45,646 bases of DNA from positions 1 through 45,646 of the forward strand of contig CAMBQF010000005.1 of the NCBI GenBank assembly GCA_945869825.1, given 5' to 3'. The notes under the pieces were generated by a model that had not been told where the DNA came from, ran no database searches, and saw nothing but the letters and a program-made list of their open reading frames with translations. The position numbers were made by a program, and so were the translations under genes. This DNA is from Chitinophaga pinensis (GTDB taxonomy: Bacteria; Bacteroidota; Bacteroidia; CAMBQF01). This document shows, one piece after another, positions 4,583 through 40,998 of this stretch; the first letter of the stretch is position 1; each line of letters begins with the position of its first letter.

Positions 4583-5305
4583 TTAGATGGAAGCTGCTTT
4601 TTCAGCCTTAAACTCAAGTTCAAACTGCTTAATAAGCTTTTCAAGTAGCAGGTCTTGAACTTCCTGCATAGAGATTTCGCGGCCAAGTTCTTGTTGGAGA
4701 GAGGTTACGCCTTTGTCTTGTATGCCGCAGGCTATGATGTTGTTGAAATAGTTAAGGTCGGTGTTTACGTTTAGGGCAAAGCCGTGCATGGTTACCCAAC
4801 GGCTGCAACGCACGCCAATGGCACAAATTTTACGCTCGCGGCCCGGTATACCTTTGTCAAGCCACACACCGGTAAGCCCTTCAATAGTATCGCCCTTAAG
4901 GCCGTAGTGTTCCAGCAGGTCTATAATGGCAAACTCTACATGGCGTAGGAACTTGTGTATATCGGTAAAGAACACGTCTAAGTCGAATATAGGGTATCCC
5001 ACCAATTGCCCCGGGCCGTGGTAAGTCATATCACCCCCACGGTTTACCTTGTGGAACTCGGCATGGGCATCTTCCAGACCCTTTTCATCAAGCAATAAGT
5101 TCTTTATATCGCCGCTATTGCCAAGGGTGTATACGTGCGGGTGCTGGCAAAGTATCAGGTGACTTTTAACCTCCTGCTTAGGGCCATCGGGGTTATCGCG
5201 GTTATAAGTTTTAGCCGCGACAGTTTCTGCAAAAAGCTGTTCCTGCACATCCCAAACCTGCTTGTAGGGCTGCAAACCAAGTATATGGAGGTAAACGGGT
5301 TTCAT
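4583..5305 (-). CDS. lipB: Lipoyl (octanoyl) transferase LipB
   Basis: 240 aa from the ATG at 5305; an ATG at 5320 would add five residues and cannot be excluded. The enzyme moves octanoate from acyl carrier protein to lipoyl domains of 2-oxoacid dehydrogenases and the glycine cleavage system. Counting from the longer start, the family signature RGGDMTYHGPGQ is at 94-105, the catalytic Lys164 in RKICAIGVR and the catalytic Cys198 in IIACGI. An insert near 35-53 (YNRDNPDGPKQE) before the SHLILCQHPHVYTLG strand is of a kind I associate with Bacteroidota homologues. lipA is not adjacent. A TACCTTTG -7-like box sits at 5373-5366, without a clear -33 element. Confidence 0.95.
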   Translation of the reverse strand: MKPVYLHILGLQPYKQVWDVQEQLFAETVAAKTYNRDNPDGPKQEVKSHLILCQHPHVYTLGNSGDIKNLLLDEKGLEDAHAEFHKVNRGGDMTYHGPGQLVGYPIFDLDVFFTDIHKFLRHVEFAIIDLLEHYGLKGDTIEGLTGVWLDKGIPGRERKICAIGVRCSRWVTMHGFALNVNTDLNYFNNIIACGIQDKGVTSLQQELGREISMQEVQDLLLEKLIKQFELEFKAEKAASI

Positions 5306-5411
5306 TGTGTTGCTATTCAATACCCTGCATTGTTATGTTTAACAACACAGTTAATTAAATTACTGCAAAGGTAAACAAAGCACCCTGCAAAAGGTTAATT
5401 TTGCTTCGGAT

Positions 5412-5846
5412 ATGGCTCGTTTAACACTTTCTGCCGCCGAGGAGTATAACTTTAAACTACTTGGCATTTCATGCCATGCAAAGGACTACCGCCTTTCATG
5501 GGCAATCAATACCGCTTTGGGTATTGAGCTGGAAAAGAACGAACCCCAACCACAGGCCGAAGGCGCCAAGCCCGATTTTTTATCGCAGTTCTCCCTTTTT
5601 ACCTGTTATGATAATGATAACTACCTGAGTTACGCGCTGGTAAGCAACCGCGGCACAGCAGGTTTCTTTGTTACCGAACAAAAAAAGACCGATTATTTCC
5701 TAAAGATAGAGGGCGATATTATTGCCCACCGTTGGGATGATATAGTAAATGCCGTGCGCAAGATAGACCTTGTGTTGGCGGTGTATGATGTAGAAGTGAA
5801 AACCTTAAAATCGAAACAAAATTTTTTATTTATAAATGACAACTAA
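5412..5846 (+). CDS. IPExxxVDY family protein
   Basis: 144 aa. It matches the Bacteroidota IPExxxVDY family by order and context: an N-terminal KLLGISCHAKDYRLSWAIN segment, central SLFTCYDN, and a motif FVTEQKKTDYFLKIEG at the place of the family's IPExxxVDYFL. The first two motif residues deviate here (VTE for IPE). Function of the family is not known to me. The 3' end overlaps pyruvate kinase by 11 bp, implying coupled translation; that neighbourhood is typical for the family. A TAATTTTG box at 5396-5403 lies 8 bases before the ATG. Confidence 0.8.
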   Translation: MARLTLSAAEEYNFKLLGISCHAKDYRLSWAINTALGIELEKNEPQPQAEGAKPDFLSQFSLFTCYDNDNYLSYALVSNRGTAGFFVTEQKKTDYFLKIEGDIIAHRWDDIVNAVRKIDLVLAVYDVEVKTLKSKQNFLFINDN

Positions 5847-7269
5847 CAGCCGTACTAAAATAGTAGCAACCATTGGGCCGGCATCGTCGCCTAAGGAGGT
5901 TTTAAGAGAGATGATACTGGCAGGGACTGATGTGTTCCGCATTAACTTTTCGCACGGCAGCCATGAAGATCATGGCGCTGTTATTAATACCATACGAGAA
6001 CTGAATGATGAGTTAGGTACTTACGTGCCTATCCTGGCCGATTTGCAAGGCCCTAAGCTGCGCATTGGCGTTATGGAAGGCGGTTCTGTTATGCTGGAGG
6101 CAGGCAAAGAAATTGTGTTTAGCACAGTAGATGGGCCCGGCACTGCCGAGCGTGTGTTTATGACCTACAACAACTTTCCTCGCGATACCAAGCCCGGCGA
6201 GAAAATTTTGCTGGATGATGGTAAGCTGTTGATGGAGGTAGTATCTACTAATGGTGTTGATGAGGTAGTTGCCAAAATACTACATGGCGGCCCGCTATCG
6301 TCTAAAAAAGGCGTAAACCTGCCCAATACCAAAATATCTTTACCCTGCTTAACACCTAAAGACCTTAAAGACCTTGACTTTGCGCTGGAGAATGATATTG
6401 AATGGATAGGTTTATCGTTTGTGCGTAACGCCGCCGATATTATAGAGTTGCAACATATTATTGCCGCTAAAGGAAAAGCATCGCGCGTGGTTGCTAAAAT
6501 AGAAAAGCCCGAGGCTATTGAAGATATTGATAACATAATAAAAGAGGCCGATGCGCTAATGGTTGCCCGTGGCGACTTAGGCGTTGAAGTTCCTATGCAA
6601 AGTGTACCGCTGATACAAAAAATGCTGGTGCGTAAATGCCTTAATGCATCAACCCCGGTAATTATTGCTACCCAAATGATGGAGAGCATGATAACCAATA
6701 TATCGCCTACGCGTGCTGAGGTTAACGATGCGGCAAACTCTATCCTTGATGGTGCCGATGCCGTTATGCTATCGGGCGAAACATCAGTAGGGGCGCACCC
6801 GGCAATGGTTATACAGGCCATGCAAAAAATTATTGCCAATGTTGAGGATGAGCAATACCCATACAACCGTCAAAACCAAGACCCATTCCCATCGGTTACA
6901 GACCGTTACGTGTCAGATTCTATTTGCACCACGGCGGCTAAAATGGCGAAGGATGTATCGGCTAAAGCAGTTATAACCATGACGTACTCGGGCTACACAG
7001 CATTCCGTTTGGCAAGCTACAGGCCCAAGGCATTAATCTTCGCATTCACATCAAACAAAGCCATACTAAACACCCTTAGTCTGCTTTGGGGCGTACGTGC
7101 CTTTTACTACGATAAAGAGGTAAGCACCGACCATACCATTGCAGATATTAAGCACCGCCTTAAAAAAGAGGGTTTTATTGATGCTAACGACTTAATTATA
7201 AACATTGCCAGTATACCCATGCACGAACATGGCAGAGCCAATATGATTAAGTTGAGTTTGGTGGATTAG
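5836..7269 (+). CDS. pyk: Pyruvate kinase
   Basis: 477 aa, usual length. It converts phosphoenolpyruvate and ADP to pyruvate and ATP, the last step of glycolysis. Visible: TKIVATIGPASS at the N terminus, INFSHGSHEDH, the B-domain between about 75 and 175, the active-site signature VVAKIEKPEAIEDID with the catalytic Lys, MVARGDLGVEVP, and the magnesium/potassium site segment IATQMMESMITNISPTRAEVND. The C-terminal allosteric domain is complete. It overlaps the IPExxxVDY gene by 11 bp and is probably co-transcribed with it. Confidence 0.98.
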   Translation: MTTNSRTKIVATIGPASSPKEVLREMILAGTDVFRINFSHGSHEDHGAVINTIRELNDELGTYVPILADLQGPKLRIGVMEGGSVMLEAGKEIVFSTVDGPGTAERVFMTYNNFPRDTKPGEKILLDDGKLLMEVVSTNGVDEVVAKILHGGPLSSKKGVNLPNTKISLPCLTPKDLKDLDFALENDIEWIGLSFVRNAADIIELQHIIAAKGKASRVVAKIEKPEAIEDIDNIIKEADALMVARGDLGVEVPMQSVPLIQKMLVRKCLNASTPVIIATQMMESMITNISPTRAEVNDAANSILDGADAVMLSGETSVGAHPAMVIQAMQKIIANVEDEQYPYNRQNQDPFPSVTDRYVSDSICTTAAKMAKDVSAKAVITMTYSGYTAFRLASYRPKALIFAFTSNKAILNTLSLLWGVRAFYYDKEVSTDHTIADIKHRLKKEGFIDANDLIINIASIPMHEHGRANMIKLSLVD

Positions 7270-36805: not shown

Positions 36806-37528
36806 TTATTCCCAACCCTCAGCCAACACATCGGCCAGGTGTTTCACCTCTAAAGGTAAGTTGTTCTTTTTAATATACCCGTCCATGTGCATAAGGCACG
36901 ACAGGTCTGTTGATATTAGGTACTTAGCGCCTGTTTTCATTGCATACTCCACTTTCTGCTCGGCAAGGCTTACAGATATAGCCTCAAACTTAACGGCAAA
37001 AAGGCCTCCAAAACCACAGCAGGTTTCTGTACCCTCCATTTCTTTCAGTTCAAGGCCACGTACTTTCTCAAGCAGCTGGCGCGGCTCTTTTTTTATGCCA
37101 CATTCGCGCAAACCCGCGCACGAGTCGTGATAGGTTGCCAGCCCATTCAGGGTAGCGCCTATGTCGCTTACCTTCAATACGTTTACCAAAAAGTCGCTCA
37201 GTTCAAACATGTTTTTGCGCACGGTGTTACATTGGTTGTGTACTGATGAGTTATTAAACAATTCAGGGTAATAGTTTTTAACCATACCAACGCACGATGC
37301 TGACGGGGAAACAATATAACGGTCGCCGTTAAACTCATTGATAAACTTTTCGCCAATTTCTTTGGCAATATCCCAATGGCCTGCATTAAAGGCCGGCTGA
37401 CCGCAACATGTTTGTTCGGGGTTGTAATTAACTTCGCAACCTACTTTTTCAAGCACCTTAACCATGTTAAAGGCTGTTTGTGGAAACAATTGGTCTACAA
37501 AACAGGGTATAAAAATATCTACTTTCAT
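36806..37528 (-). CDS. CCG-domain Fe-S protein (LutA/GlcF-C-like)
   Basis: 240 aa with two cysteine-rich CCG domains: Cys9 (FIPCFVDQ) with TCCGQP at 40-44, and HDSCAGLREC with TETCCGFGGLF. The family includes LutA, an Fe-S subunit for lactate oxidation, and heterodisulfide-reductase-like subunits. It begins 6 bp after the MFS gene stop on the same strand, so the two are an operon. LutB and LutC are not next to it; a GlcD-type oxidase is at 22411. Confidence 0.87.
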   Translation of the reverse strand: MKVDIFIPCFVDQLFPQTAFNMVKVLEKVGCEVNYNPEQTCCGQPAFNAGHWDIAKEIGEKFINEFNGDRYIVSPSASCVGMVKNYYPELFNNSSVHNQCNTVRKNMFELSDFLVNVLKVSDIGATLNGLATYHDSCAGLRECGIKKEPRQLLEKVRGLELKEMEGTETCCGFGGLFAVKFEAISVSLAEQKVEYAMKTGAKYLISTDLSCLMHMDGYIKKNNLPLEVKHLADVLAEGWE

Positions 37529-37534
37529 TGGATG

Positions 37535-38836
37535 CTAAATTAACCGTTTTTCCTTTTCTATCCTAAGCAAAAACAGTATGCCTATCAGAAAGAATACCGC
37601 CATAGCTAACAAAGAGTAGCGCATACTCTCTGTACGCTGCTCTACCAGCCCAAAACTGGCAGAACCTATAAAGGCTGCCATCTTCTCCATAATATCGTAA
37701 AAACTAAAGAATGATGTATTATCATTTGTAGCCGGCAACAGCTTAGAATAGGTAGAGCGCGACAGTGCCTGCATGCCGCCCATAAACAGGCCAACACAGC
37801 AGGCCACAATAATAAATTCCAGCTGACTATTCATAAAATAGCCATAGGTACACATTATGGCCCAGGCTGCAGCCCCACCAATTAGAACTTTGGTATTACC
37901 GTACGTTTTAGATAAACGGGCAAAGGCTATAGCGCCTACAATGCCTAGTAGTTGTATGCCTACAACAGTGGCAATAAGTAAATTGTCGGGCATTTTTAGC
38001 ACCTTGCTACCAAACGAAGGGGCCAGGTACATCATAGTTAGCAAGCCCATGGTGTAGAAGAAAAAGCCACCTAAAAACAGACGGAGTAGTCGAAGGGTCC
38101 ATATTTGTTTCCAAACGCCCTGCAGCTCTTTATACCCATTGCGTAGCGGGCGCTTTTTGCTTTGCTTATTGTGAATGTTACGCGGAAGGCGTAAAAATGA
38201 GTATTGAGAGAATACTATCCACCAAATGCCTACACTTAAAAACGATATCTGTGCCGGCTTGTTCGATGATTTGTCAAACCCAAACAGCTCTGGCATTAGC
38301 AACATTGCCAGGTTGAAAATAAGCAGCACTATGCCACCCAGGTAGCCCATGGCAAAACCCTGTGCCGATATTTTGTCGTGGTCTTTAGGTTCGGCAATTT
38401 CGGGCAAATACGAGTTATAGTAAACCAAACTGCCCAAATATCCTATCAATGCTGTAGTGTAGCAAATAATACCAAGCTCTACATGGTTACGGTCAAACCA
38501 AAAAAGGGCTATGCAGCTAAAAGCCCCCATATAGGTAAAAAACTTCATAAAAGCCTTCTTCTCGCCAGTATAATCAGCAGCTGATGATAGGAAAGGAGAG
38601 ATAATAGCCGTAAACAGAAAGGCCGCGGCTATGGCATAAGCCAGTAAAACAGTGTTAGGGAAATGATACCCAAAAAAACTCACCATCTGCACATTGTCGG
38701 CAACAGACCCTTTGGTTACCGCCTGATAATATACCGGAAACACTACAGAGGTAACGGTAAGCTGGTAGGCCGAGTTTGCCCAGTCGTACATTATCCACCC
38801 GCGGATAACGCGTTTATCTCCTTTTATTTGTCTCAT
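37535..38836 (-). CDS. MFS transporter, UMF1/Atg22-like
   Basis: 433 aa from the ATG at 38836; the longer frame to 38884 would add 16 codons across the promoter. The first helix region GWIMYDWANSAYQLTVTSVVFPVYY is the UMF1-family mark (DWANSAY). About twelve hydrophobic helices follow; AQGFAMGYLGGIVLL and MGGMQALSRSTYSKLLPATNDNTSFFSFYDIMEK are further family segments. Substrate unknown. A good promoter lies 11 bases before the start, and the Fe-S protein follows in the same operon. Confidence 0.9.
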   Translation of the reverse strand: MRQIKGDKRVIRGWIMYDWANSAYQLTVTSVVFPVYYQAVTKGSVADNVQMVSFFGYHFPNTVLLAYAIAAAFLFTAIISPFLSSAADYTGEKKAFMKFFTYMGAFSCIALFWFDRNHVELGIICYTTALIGYLGSLVYYNSYLPEIAEPKDHDKISAQGFAMGYLGGIVLLIFNLAMLLMPELFGFDKSSNKPAQISFLSVGIWWIVFSQYSFLRLPRNIHNKQSKKRPLRNGYKELQGVWKQIWTLRLLRLFLGGFFFYTMGLLTMMYLAPSFGSKVLKMPDNLLIATVVGIQLLGIVGAIAFARLSKTYGNTKVLIGGAAAWAIMCTYGYFMNSQLEFIIVACCVGLFMGGMQALSRSTYSKLLPATNDNTSFFSFYDIMEKMAAFIGSASFGLVEQRTESMRYSLLAMAVFFLIGILFLLRIEKEKRLI

Positions 38837-38847
38837 ATACTGCTTGG

Positions 38848-38879
38848 CAAATATAATCTTTGGGATGAAATGGCAGCAA
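38848..38879 (-). promoter_or_regulatory. Promoter of the MFS/Fe-S operon
   Basis: Minus strand TTG (38879-38877), 21 nt, TATATTTG (38855-38848): full match. The ATG at 38836 follows 11 bases later. Confidence 0.6.
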
Positions 38880-38893
38880 TTCAAAAAAAGTTC

Positions 38894-38914: not shown

Positions 38915-38996
38915 GCCCGGATGGCGGAATTGGTAGACGCGCTGGTCTCAAACACCTGTGTCTTCGGGCATGCCGGTTCGACTCCGGCTCCGGGTA
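38915..38996 (+). tRNA. tRNA-Leu (anticodon CAA)
   Basis: 82 nt class II tRNA. Acceptor gcccgga pairs with tccgggt (one G-U) with A73 as discriminator. The D arm (ggcggaattggtagacgc), anticodon loop ctcaaac with CAA, a variable arm with gtcttcgggc, and the T arm ccggttcgactccgg are present. There is a U-U mismatch in the anticodon stem. CCA is not encoded. It reads UUG codons. Confidence 0.95.
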
Positions 38997-39002
38997 CAAC
39001 TT

Positions 39003-39036
39003 GTAAAAGCCTCTGATAAATCAGGGGCTTTTTTGT
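39003..39036 (+). terminator. Terminator of tRNA-Leu
   Basis: aagcc.ctga / tcag.ggctt followed by tttttt. Confidence 0.8.
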
Positions 39037-39399
39037 TTTGTTCAAACTTGCTATCCTAATCTTAACTATGCTAATAAACAGAATTACTGCAAACCAAAAC
39101 TAAGAAACTACTTTTTGGTATTCTGTATCAAAAAATTAATTGATAATTTGAATTATCTCTTTTACTTAGTAATGGGTTATTGTTGTACACATTATTTTAA
39201 AGTAAAACATTCATAAAGTTTATTTTGGCAATTAACTTATGTTTAACAACAAAGAAATTTATATATAATGCAACTATCAAAAAAATGAGGGATAACCCCT
39301 GTTTTTTTAAATATAATTATAATTTAATTTTATGCAAATAATTAATCTAAAAACATTGTATTAGTGCTTAAAATTATAAATTGCTAAAGTAACCCAATT
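39037..39399. other. Very A/T-rich gap between tRNA-Leu and the HDO gene
   Basis: About 360 bases. One small inverted repeat (tatcaa 39126-39131 with ttgata 39140-39145) was seen. No promoter boxes of the usual type and no open frame. The composition is lower in G/C than the chromosome around it and suggests insertion of foreign DNA behind the tRNA. Confidence 0.5.
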
Positions 39400-40179
39400 A
39401 TGGAACAAATTGCTCAAAAAATTACAGACATTTCGAATTTAAATCATCCTTATCTGGAATCACTTCTGGATGAAGCTATGAACCACCGCGCTGTTAACCA
39501 TCCGTATTTAAAAGCACTGGCAAGCGGCTCGTTTGCCAATATGCCAGCCGTAATGCGAGATTTTGCAGGTCAGTATGGCTTTTATAGTTCATGGTTTCCG
39601 CGTTACCTCACCGGGGTTATTTCTAAAATGGAAAATGCCGAACACCGCAGCCATTTACTAGATAATCTTGCCGAAGAAAGTGGGCATCTCCACGAAGAAG
39701 ATATGGAGGCTATCCGTGCGCTCGGCATTAAAGATGAATGGGTACAGGGTATTCCACACCCCCAGTTGTTTAAGCGTTTTCAGCACGCTATTGGTGCCGA
39801 AACATCGGGCAAACCGGGAATTGAAGTTGAAGTATGGCGCGATGGTTTTTTAACGCTCATTCAAAATACTAATAAATCTGCAGCCAACGTTGTTGGCGCC
39901 ATAGGCTTAGGTACCGAATCGGTGGTAAAATATATTTACAAATATATCATCGAAGCCATTGAAAAGCATACCGATTTAACTCTAGAGCAGTATGTGTTTT
40001 TTCCTTTACACACCGAGGTGGATGATGAACACGGCCTTATTTTGCTAGATATTGCACGCCAAATGATTGATGAGGGGTCACAATCAGCGCACGAAGTGCG
40101 AAAAGGAATGCTTTCAGCACTAAACATGCGGGCTTGTTATTGGGAAGATATGATGGTTCGCGCACAAAAAATAGGATAG
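39400..40179 (+). CDS. Haem-oxygenase-like diiron oxidase (HDO; iron-containing redox enzyme family)
   Basis: 259 aa all-helical protein. The HDO ligand pattern is complete: Glu93-xx-His96 (LAEESGH), Glu173 in GTESVV, and His204-x3-Asp208-x2-His211 in HTEVDDEH. Spacing matches UndA-like oxidases, which cut or oxidise amino or fatty acid substrates with O2. It is also related to CADD and TenA-type folds. The substrate cannot be read. Its TAG stop touches the ATG of the cupin gene, so both are made together. The codon choice differs a little from the neighbours and the upstream gap is A/T-rich, which suggests gene transfer. Confidence 0.85.
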   Translation: MEQIAQKITDISNLNHPYLESLLDEAMNHRAVNHPYLKALASGSFANMPAVMRDFAGQYGFYSSWFPRYLTGVISKMENAEHRSHLLDNLAEESGHLHEEDMEAIRALGIKDEWVQGIPHPQLFKRFQHAIGAETSGKPGIEVEVWRDGFLTLIQNTNKSAANVVGAIGLGTESVVKYIYKYIIEAIEKHTDLTLEQYVFFPLHTEVDDEHGLILLDIARQMIDEGSQSAHEVRKGMLSALNMRACYWEDMMVRAQKIG

Positions 40180-40938
40180 ATGGGGGCTCAGCTTTGTATA
40201 CTCGCTCTTCGTAATCATTGGTTCGAAACGCACGAAATTGAACGTATTCGAGATGGGTTTACTGCCGCAAAAGATGCAATTGCCAATTTATCAACCACGG
40301 TTTTGATTGATAAACCTGCGTTTGCTTCATTACTCTATGTTGCAGCACAGCTAAATCAAGCATTGTTTGATCGCTTTTTTGCAATTCTTGACAATGAAAT
40401 CTCAGGCAGTCCTGAATTTTCCCCCGAAGAGCTTTCTGTTTGGGATGCAGTTTGGATGGATATTCAGTGGCAACGTACCGGAATACTCAATAATAAAATT
40501 AATGCCCGAACAACGCTCACGCACTCAAATCGCGAAGAAGATTTTCGTTCTTCATTAACTGATATTCGTTTGGATGGTATTTACGAAAATCATTCCGATA
40601 AACTCAATATCGATTTTCGGGTGCAGCGTCTGCCATTTCCTTTGGAAGTGCTAGATCCGCGAATAGTGCGCATACCTCCTGGTAAAACAAACGAGCTCCA
40701 TAAGCATGCCCACGAAACGGTATTTATTTTTATGCAGGGCACCGGGTATGTAAAGGTTGATCAGGTTCAAATTTCCGTGGCTCCGGGCGATTTCGTTTTC
40801 ATTCCGCGCTGGTGCCTGCATCAGTCGGTCAACGAGTCGGACGGAGAGATGGTATTTTTGGCTGTGGCCGATTTTGGACTGACTGGCAAATCATTTACAG
40901 GTAACTACCTTAAAACCGCCAGATTAAAAACAGAATAA
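40180..40938 (+). CDS. Protein with unknown helical N-terminal domain and C-terminal cupin
   Basis: 252 aa. The start ATG follows the HDO stop directly (tagatg). Residues 1-115 look helical (WFETHEIERIRDGFTAAKDAI; AAQLNQALFDRFFAIL) and match nothing I know. Residues 150-240 are a cupin: motif 1 with His174, His176, His178 and Glu179 (ELHKHAHETVFIFMQGTGYV), motif 2 G203-x5-Pro209-x4-His214-x3-Asn218 (GDFVFIPRWCLHQSVN). A metal-binding cupin, perhaps iron, is expected. It may act on the HDO product or the same substrate. The function is unknown. Confidence 0.75.
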   Translation: MGAQLCILALRNHWFETHEIERIRDGFTAAKDAIANLSTTVLIDKPAFASLLYVAAQLNQALFDRFFAILDNEISGSPEFSPEELSVWDAVWMDIQWQRTGILNNKINARTTLTHSNREEDFRSSLTDIRLDGIYENHSDKLNIDFRVQRLPFPLEVLDPRIVRIPPGKTNELHKHAHETVFIFMQGTGYVKVDQVQISVAPGDFVFIPRWCLHQSVNESDGEMVFLAVADFGLTGKSFTGNYLKTARLKTE

Positions 40939-40970: not shown

Positions 40971-40998
40971 AAAGCCCTGGCAGAAATGTCAGGGCTTT
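40971..40998 (+). terminator. Terminator of the HDO-cupin operon
   Basis: aaagccctggca-gaaa-tgtcagggcttt, a 12-bp stem with GNRA-type loop (one G-U) and a T-run. Confidence 0.85.

Follow-up and report, generated by a model that had tools for sequence, protein, structure and literature searches.

As seen in Table 1, two adjacent genes lie on the forward strand of the window, that is, the whole 45,646-nucleotide stretch of DNA that was analyzed, whose host is an uncultivated Bacteroidota bacterium. The first gene encodes a heme-oxygenase-like dimetal oxidase (HDO) and the second a cupin protein. The original prediction of two open reading frames joined stop to start was confirmed, as were the A/T-rich leader (23% GC over positions 39000-39399 versus 44% for the window) and the terminator of the pair's own. 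The junction is consistent with translational coupling, and similarly tight HDO-cupin junctions are present in the cupin-bearing relatives. No site fitting the Bacteroidota promoter consensus was found in the leader, and the window contains no excess of such sites.

Table 1. Positions of the HDO-cupin pair and of its adjoining signals in the window
Feature	Position	Strand	Basis or remark
tRNA-Leu(CAA)	38915..38997	+	Neighbor, outside the system
A/T-rich leader, 23% GC	38992..39399	+	Runs from the tRNA 3' end and terminator onward
HDO gene, heme-oxygenase-like dimetal oxidase, PF14518, 259 aa	39400..40179	+	ORF, profile match, alignment
Stop-start junction TAGATG	40177..40182	+	HDO stop touches cupin start
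Cupin gene, 252 aa	40180..40938	+	ORF, Cupin_2 profile, alignment
Cupin protein, N-terminal predicted helical domain	about residues 1-135		Poorly conserved
Cupin protein, C-terminal Cupin_2 domain			
Terminator-like hairpin with T-run	40971..40998	+	3' of the cupin gene

The HDO protein scored 57.5 bits against the Pfam profile PF14518 (Haem_oxygenas_2; cut-off 28.9), which places it in the HDO superfamily. In an alignment of nine HDO sequences, 28-68% identical to the window protein and including two from proteobacteria, Glu93, His120, Glu173, His204, Asp208 and His211 are invariant. These residues form a 3H/3C set of the E-H-X-H-D/E-H kind; E-H-X-H-D-H is the common HDO motif (PMC11363339), and 3H/3C is given for UndA, CADD and BesC in the HDO literature (PMC11363339; PMC13108848). 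Because the six-residue set is invariant, the HDO should bind metal, and it is predicted to be a 3H/3C dimetal oxidase. Five of the six ligands originally proposed are among these residues. The sixth, His96, was dropped as a ligand; several Bacteroidota relatives have Asn or Arg in its place, and it is absent from the two proteobacterial ones, where the loop holding it is shortened, whereas His120, the predicted sixth, does not vary. The profile comparison pairs His120 with CADD residue 88, a His that opens the same motif (HPQLFKRF in the window, HIDLWKQF in CADD). A metal-less thiaminase of the TenA type, considered from the outset, was ruled out: the TenA/THI-4 profile PF03070 gave 19.5 bits, below its cut-off of 22, and the metal ligands are present. 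The single-sequence AlphaFold model of the HDO (mean pLDDT 41) was too poor for reading geometry or the seven-helix fold.

The metal-binding cupin foreseen as the second gene is borne out by a Cupin_2 domain score of 56.9 bits (Pfam cut-off 27.2) and by His174, His176 and His214 (HxH...H, the 3-His type), which are invariant in seven cupin sequences. Most cupins carry a Glu at the motif position that is occupied here by Thr180. In a profile search of the PDB, the closest solved relatives were gentisate 1,2-dioxygenases. The cupin of SznF has three essential histidines, H407, H409 and H448 (PMC11705231). Judged by its residues, the putative 3-His site with Thr180 resembles those of the gentisate dioxygenases and of the SznF cupin. 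The N-terminal domain evolves fast, with 18-33% identity between genera; full-length scans gave it no Pfam match, and profile comparison gave it no kinship to HDO. Comparison of the window with its congener G002 yielded a dN/dS of 0.03 for the HDO and 0.11 for the whole cupin protein (0.04 for the cupin domain versus 0.27 for the N-terminal domain). These low values indicate that both genes are under purifying selection and are coding beyond chance. The single-sequence AlphaFold model of the cupin protein (mean pLDDT 35) has unreadable geometry.

Occurrence and partner genes in relatives

HDO, cupin and a partner methyltransferase were searched for in 395 genomes of the class and were found in 11, eight and six genomes, respectively. 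Every cupin genome lies within the 11 HDO genomes, as does every methyltransferase genome, and the partner methyltransferase is found nowhere else in the sample. In all eight cupin genomes the cupin gene is immediately 3' of HDO, so the homologues were not found apart; in one of these genomes, G179, the pair is split over two contigs joined by an exact 129-base overlap. In G235 the contig breaks off within the HDO gene, and the cupin was not found in that incomplete genome. Two genomes of family f23 are without the cupin, and their HDO is followed by the methyltransferase and then by a TauD-type oxygenase. Hypergeometric p values were 1e-14 for the cupin and 9e-11 for the methyltransferase; both are naive, ignoring shared ancestry, and with the carriers confined to four families, fewer independent cases underlie them than the counts imply. 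A sample of 396 genomes of the phylum gave no copy besides that of the window, and viral contigs yielded no relative.

The methyltransferase and the TauD-type oxygenase sit together in 6 of the 11 HDO genomes and beside HDO in five; in the other, G118, they occupy a separate locus. At locus L018 a single run reads HDO-cupin-reductase-methyltransferase-TauD, the reductase being a flavin/2Fe-2S protein of the ferredoxin type that occurs in this one genome. At L015 and L019 the methyltransferase and TauD genes are divergent from HDO. No methyltransferase or TauD of the partner families was found in the remaining five, the window genome, G002, G149, G179 and G207. It can be seen that the absence of a biosynthetic gene nearby, noted in the original prediction, holds within the window and not for those relatives in which methyltransferase and 2-oxoglutarate (2OG) oxygenase genes adjoin the pair. 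The accompaniment of HDO by these genes in six genomes also speaks against a minimal pathway as a general description. Because the cupin and the methyltransferase/TauD module are each missing from some genomes, the core is HDO plus one or both of these partner modules.

The TauD-family triad HTD...H is invariant in the partner oxygenases, whose nearest PDB entries are a predicted hydroxylase and gamma-butyrobetaine dioxygenases. The partner methyltransferase is of class I, and its identity as an arginine methylase is not obvious. ABC-transporter genes adjoining the pair in genus g84 were judged to be local synteny, not partners. The TauD gene of G222 (L022:6050-7002) is split in two and contains a stretch of unknown residues, which probably reflects a gap in the assembly and not a real break.

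Transfer and the tRNA-Leu site

The HDO of G235, a member of genus g84, is 92% identical to that of the window versus 65-69% to those of other g84 members, and the HDO tree rejected a monophyletic genus (AU p = 5e-5). Horizontal transfer of HDO between lineages is supported by these gene comparisons. Misbinning is made less likely by the transporter neighbors on the G235 contig, which resemble those in the other g84 genomes.

The pair had also been proposed to be a movable unit. The gene tree upholds the transfer; the tRNA-side position proved to be a weak sign, with a recombinase at the same tRNA in congeners. To the left, G002 and G001 stay collinear with the window through the end of tRNA-Leu, after which a serine recombinase stands in place of the HDO pair; in this genus, elements appear to integrate at this tRNA. 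The HDO-cupin block of G002 lies on another contig and, leader included, shares its sequence with the window from GGGTACA, the tRNA 3' end, onward. The simplest reading would be that insertion of a recombinase element at the tRNA parted it from an older neighbor, the HDO pair; the location beside the tRNA is probably incidental. No evidence of synteny came from the right-hand flank, whose nearest homologue in G001 is far from the tRNA.

The serine recombinases at the tRNA-Leu 3' end (L062:2638-4317, minus strand, and L063, about 4628-6184) carry Resolvase and Recombinase domains, and the G001 copy is broken into pieces. In G002, 75-nt imperfect direct repeats (77%; L025:654-728 and L025:2789-2863) flank the HDO-cupin block, and the left repeat abuts GGGTACA. 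On the other side of the tRNA, positions 36806-37528 of the window (minus strand) encode a free-standing protein bearing two CCG (cysteine-rich) domains that is similar to the C-terminal part of LdhH, a quinone-linked L-lactate dehydrogenase; an Atg22-like MFS transporter gene (37535-38884) adjoins it.

Chemistry of the pair and its alternatives

Of more than 10,000 HDOs, a reaction is known for only about a dozen; their chemistry is mostly on amino and fatty acids, and most of the reactions found so far are unprecedented in diiron chemistry (PMC13108848). According to the reading that we favor, to which we give a somewhat better than even chance, the two genes form one operon whose products would oxidatively modify a small molecule, probably similar to an amino acid, in two steps. 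Support for this reading comes from the invariant ligand sets, the TauD-family triad included, the exclusive co-occurrence in the sample, the tight packing of the genes, the single five-gene run at L018, the recurrence of HDO with a methyltransferase in another phylum, the strong selection and the evident transfer. As to the metals bound, the order of the steps, the substrate and the product, we infer the following. The HDO would bind two metal ions through its six invariant residues, activate O2 and oxidize the substrate; the candidate reactions are N-oxygenation, C-C cleavage and desaturation. Next, the HDO product would be converted or rearranged by the cupin, whose three histidines would carry one metal ion. 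In some relatives the class I methyltransferase and the TauD-type 2OG oxygenase may tailor the molecule further, so that methylation and hydroxylation would be optional, and the flavin/2Fe-2S protein may supply electrons. The window genome would operate the HDO-cupin core only and would need general reductants. No fixed pathway is defined, because five of the 11 HDO genomes lack the methyltransferase/TauD families and two lack the cupin.

The precedent for an HDO feeding a cupin is SznF, and the favored reading has the pair working in the same way, but as two separate proteins. A 2010 study (PMC2922099), which preceded the characterization of SznF, predicted an operon theme that combines HDO-cupin proteins with an amino-acid methylase. 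In the streptozotocin system, SznF/StzF, an HDO-cupin fusion, goes together with the methyltransferase SznE, and the same three activities, methyltransferase, HDO and 3-His cupin, come together here. It is conceivable, although rather unlikely, that the pair is a split SznF, in which the HDO would hydroxylate nitrogen atoms of an amino acid N-methylated by the partner methyltransferase and the 3-His cupin would rearrange the product to an N-N group, for example N-nitroso. The spacing from the first to the last cupin His is 41 in SznF and 40 here (H174 to H214), and the HDO spacing E281-H311-D315-H318 of SznF resembles E173-H204-D208-H211. However, neither family profile matched SznF in the PDB, at E values of up to 10 (HDO) and 1 (cupin). 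SznF is also 3H/4C (PMC13108848), and no counterpart of its extra Glu was recognized in the HDO alignment, where the set is 3H/3C. Moreover, the methyltransferase is of a different type from SznE, is not obviously an arginine methylase and is missing as a family from the window genome, and some relatives have a TauD oxygenase in addition. By the tests available, the family is not an SznF homologue: no sequence kinship is detectable, and HDO and cupin are separate proteins where SznF is one chain.

The other alternatives concern the individual proteins. An HDO of Acinetobacter baumannii, DtpC, has six predicted ligands, protects from desiccation stress and shares a two-gene operon with the catalase KatE (PMC13232832). 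DtpC is likened by description, and its partner is a catalase where the partner here is a cupin. A protective role against oxidative stress, with the cupin assisting and no metabolite made, would suit the five genomes with a two-gene form and no evident pathway partner; the six relatives with methyltransferase and TauD genes, five of them directly beside HDO, suit the tailoring of a molecule instead, and we regard protection as improbable. A similarly low probability is given to the cupin being a sensor of the product or a regulator rather than an enzyme. Weak similarities to AraC_binding and to the ChrR cupin in profile scans and the fast-evolving N-terminal domain would agree with such a function, but no DNA-binding domain was found in the protein, its metal histidines are invariant, the gene is tightly coupled downstream of HDO, and gentisate dioxygenases are its nearest solved kin. 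A self-sacrificing p-aminobenzoate synthase like CADD and NePabS has hardly any probability left and was rejected, even though CADD is the closest solved relative of the HDO (profile, E = 8.5e-9) and shares its fold family and metal ligands. The profile TIGR04305 gave 57.5 bits, far under its cut-off of 200. The sacrificed residues of CADD, Tyr27 and Lys152 (numbering from PMC13108848), align with Leu37 and Ile183, so that the HDO should not be such a synthase; the loop between the first Glu and His ligands is also longer here, and the partners differ.

Returning to the two-step oxidative reading, the HDO-cupin pair appears to form the core of a pathway, so far undescribed, that modifies a small molecule, and the literature searched gave no description of this family's partner set and no matching pathway. 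A bolder extension is doubtful, yet worth stating: a modular, horizontally spread pathway of two to five genes (HDO with cupin, to which methyltransferase with TauD, and then the reductase, are added) might make an undescribed metabolite that is oxidized and in some cases methylated. In it, HDO and cupin as independent proteins would take the place of the SznF fusion and carry out new chemistry without NRPS or PKS. The partners of this HDO are defined by conservation, and its bare two-gene form is simple enough for reconstitution in vitro. As a split counterpart to the SznF fusion, it makes the roles of HDO and cupin separable, one protein at a time.

Several other HDO systems can be set beside the pair. 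BesC, the 4-chloro-allylglycine synthase, is the next-best solved match after CADD and is an HDO acting on a free amino acid; the HDO here scores 26.6 bits on the BesC equivalog profile NF042919 versus a cut-off of 500 and has other pathway partners. HrmI/HrmJ, an HDO paired with a 2OG oxygenase, is likened by description, and neither it nor MboA/MboB is known to have a cupin partner. MboA/MboB, an HDO with a redox partner (PMC13108848), is compared by description with the reductase-bearing locus L018.

On plasmids only distant HDOs were found, in Indioceanicola (38%) and in a Pantoea HDO-aminotransferase fusion (28%). On the plasmid of Indioceanicola profundi, an alphaproteobacterium and thus of another phylum, the HDO gene overlaps a methyltransferase gene. 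This pair comes after flagellar-hook-like genes and a glycosyltransferase, with a DegT aminotransferase and a possible 2OG oxygenase nearby, and the locus (L042:4010-14589) is perhaps one for glycan or flagellar modification. In Pantoea (L043:11923-13923) the HDO domain is fused to a class III aminotransferase of the diaminobutyrate type, the whole being annotated merely as EctB, and the next gene has weak ATP-grasp similarity.
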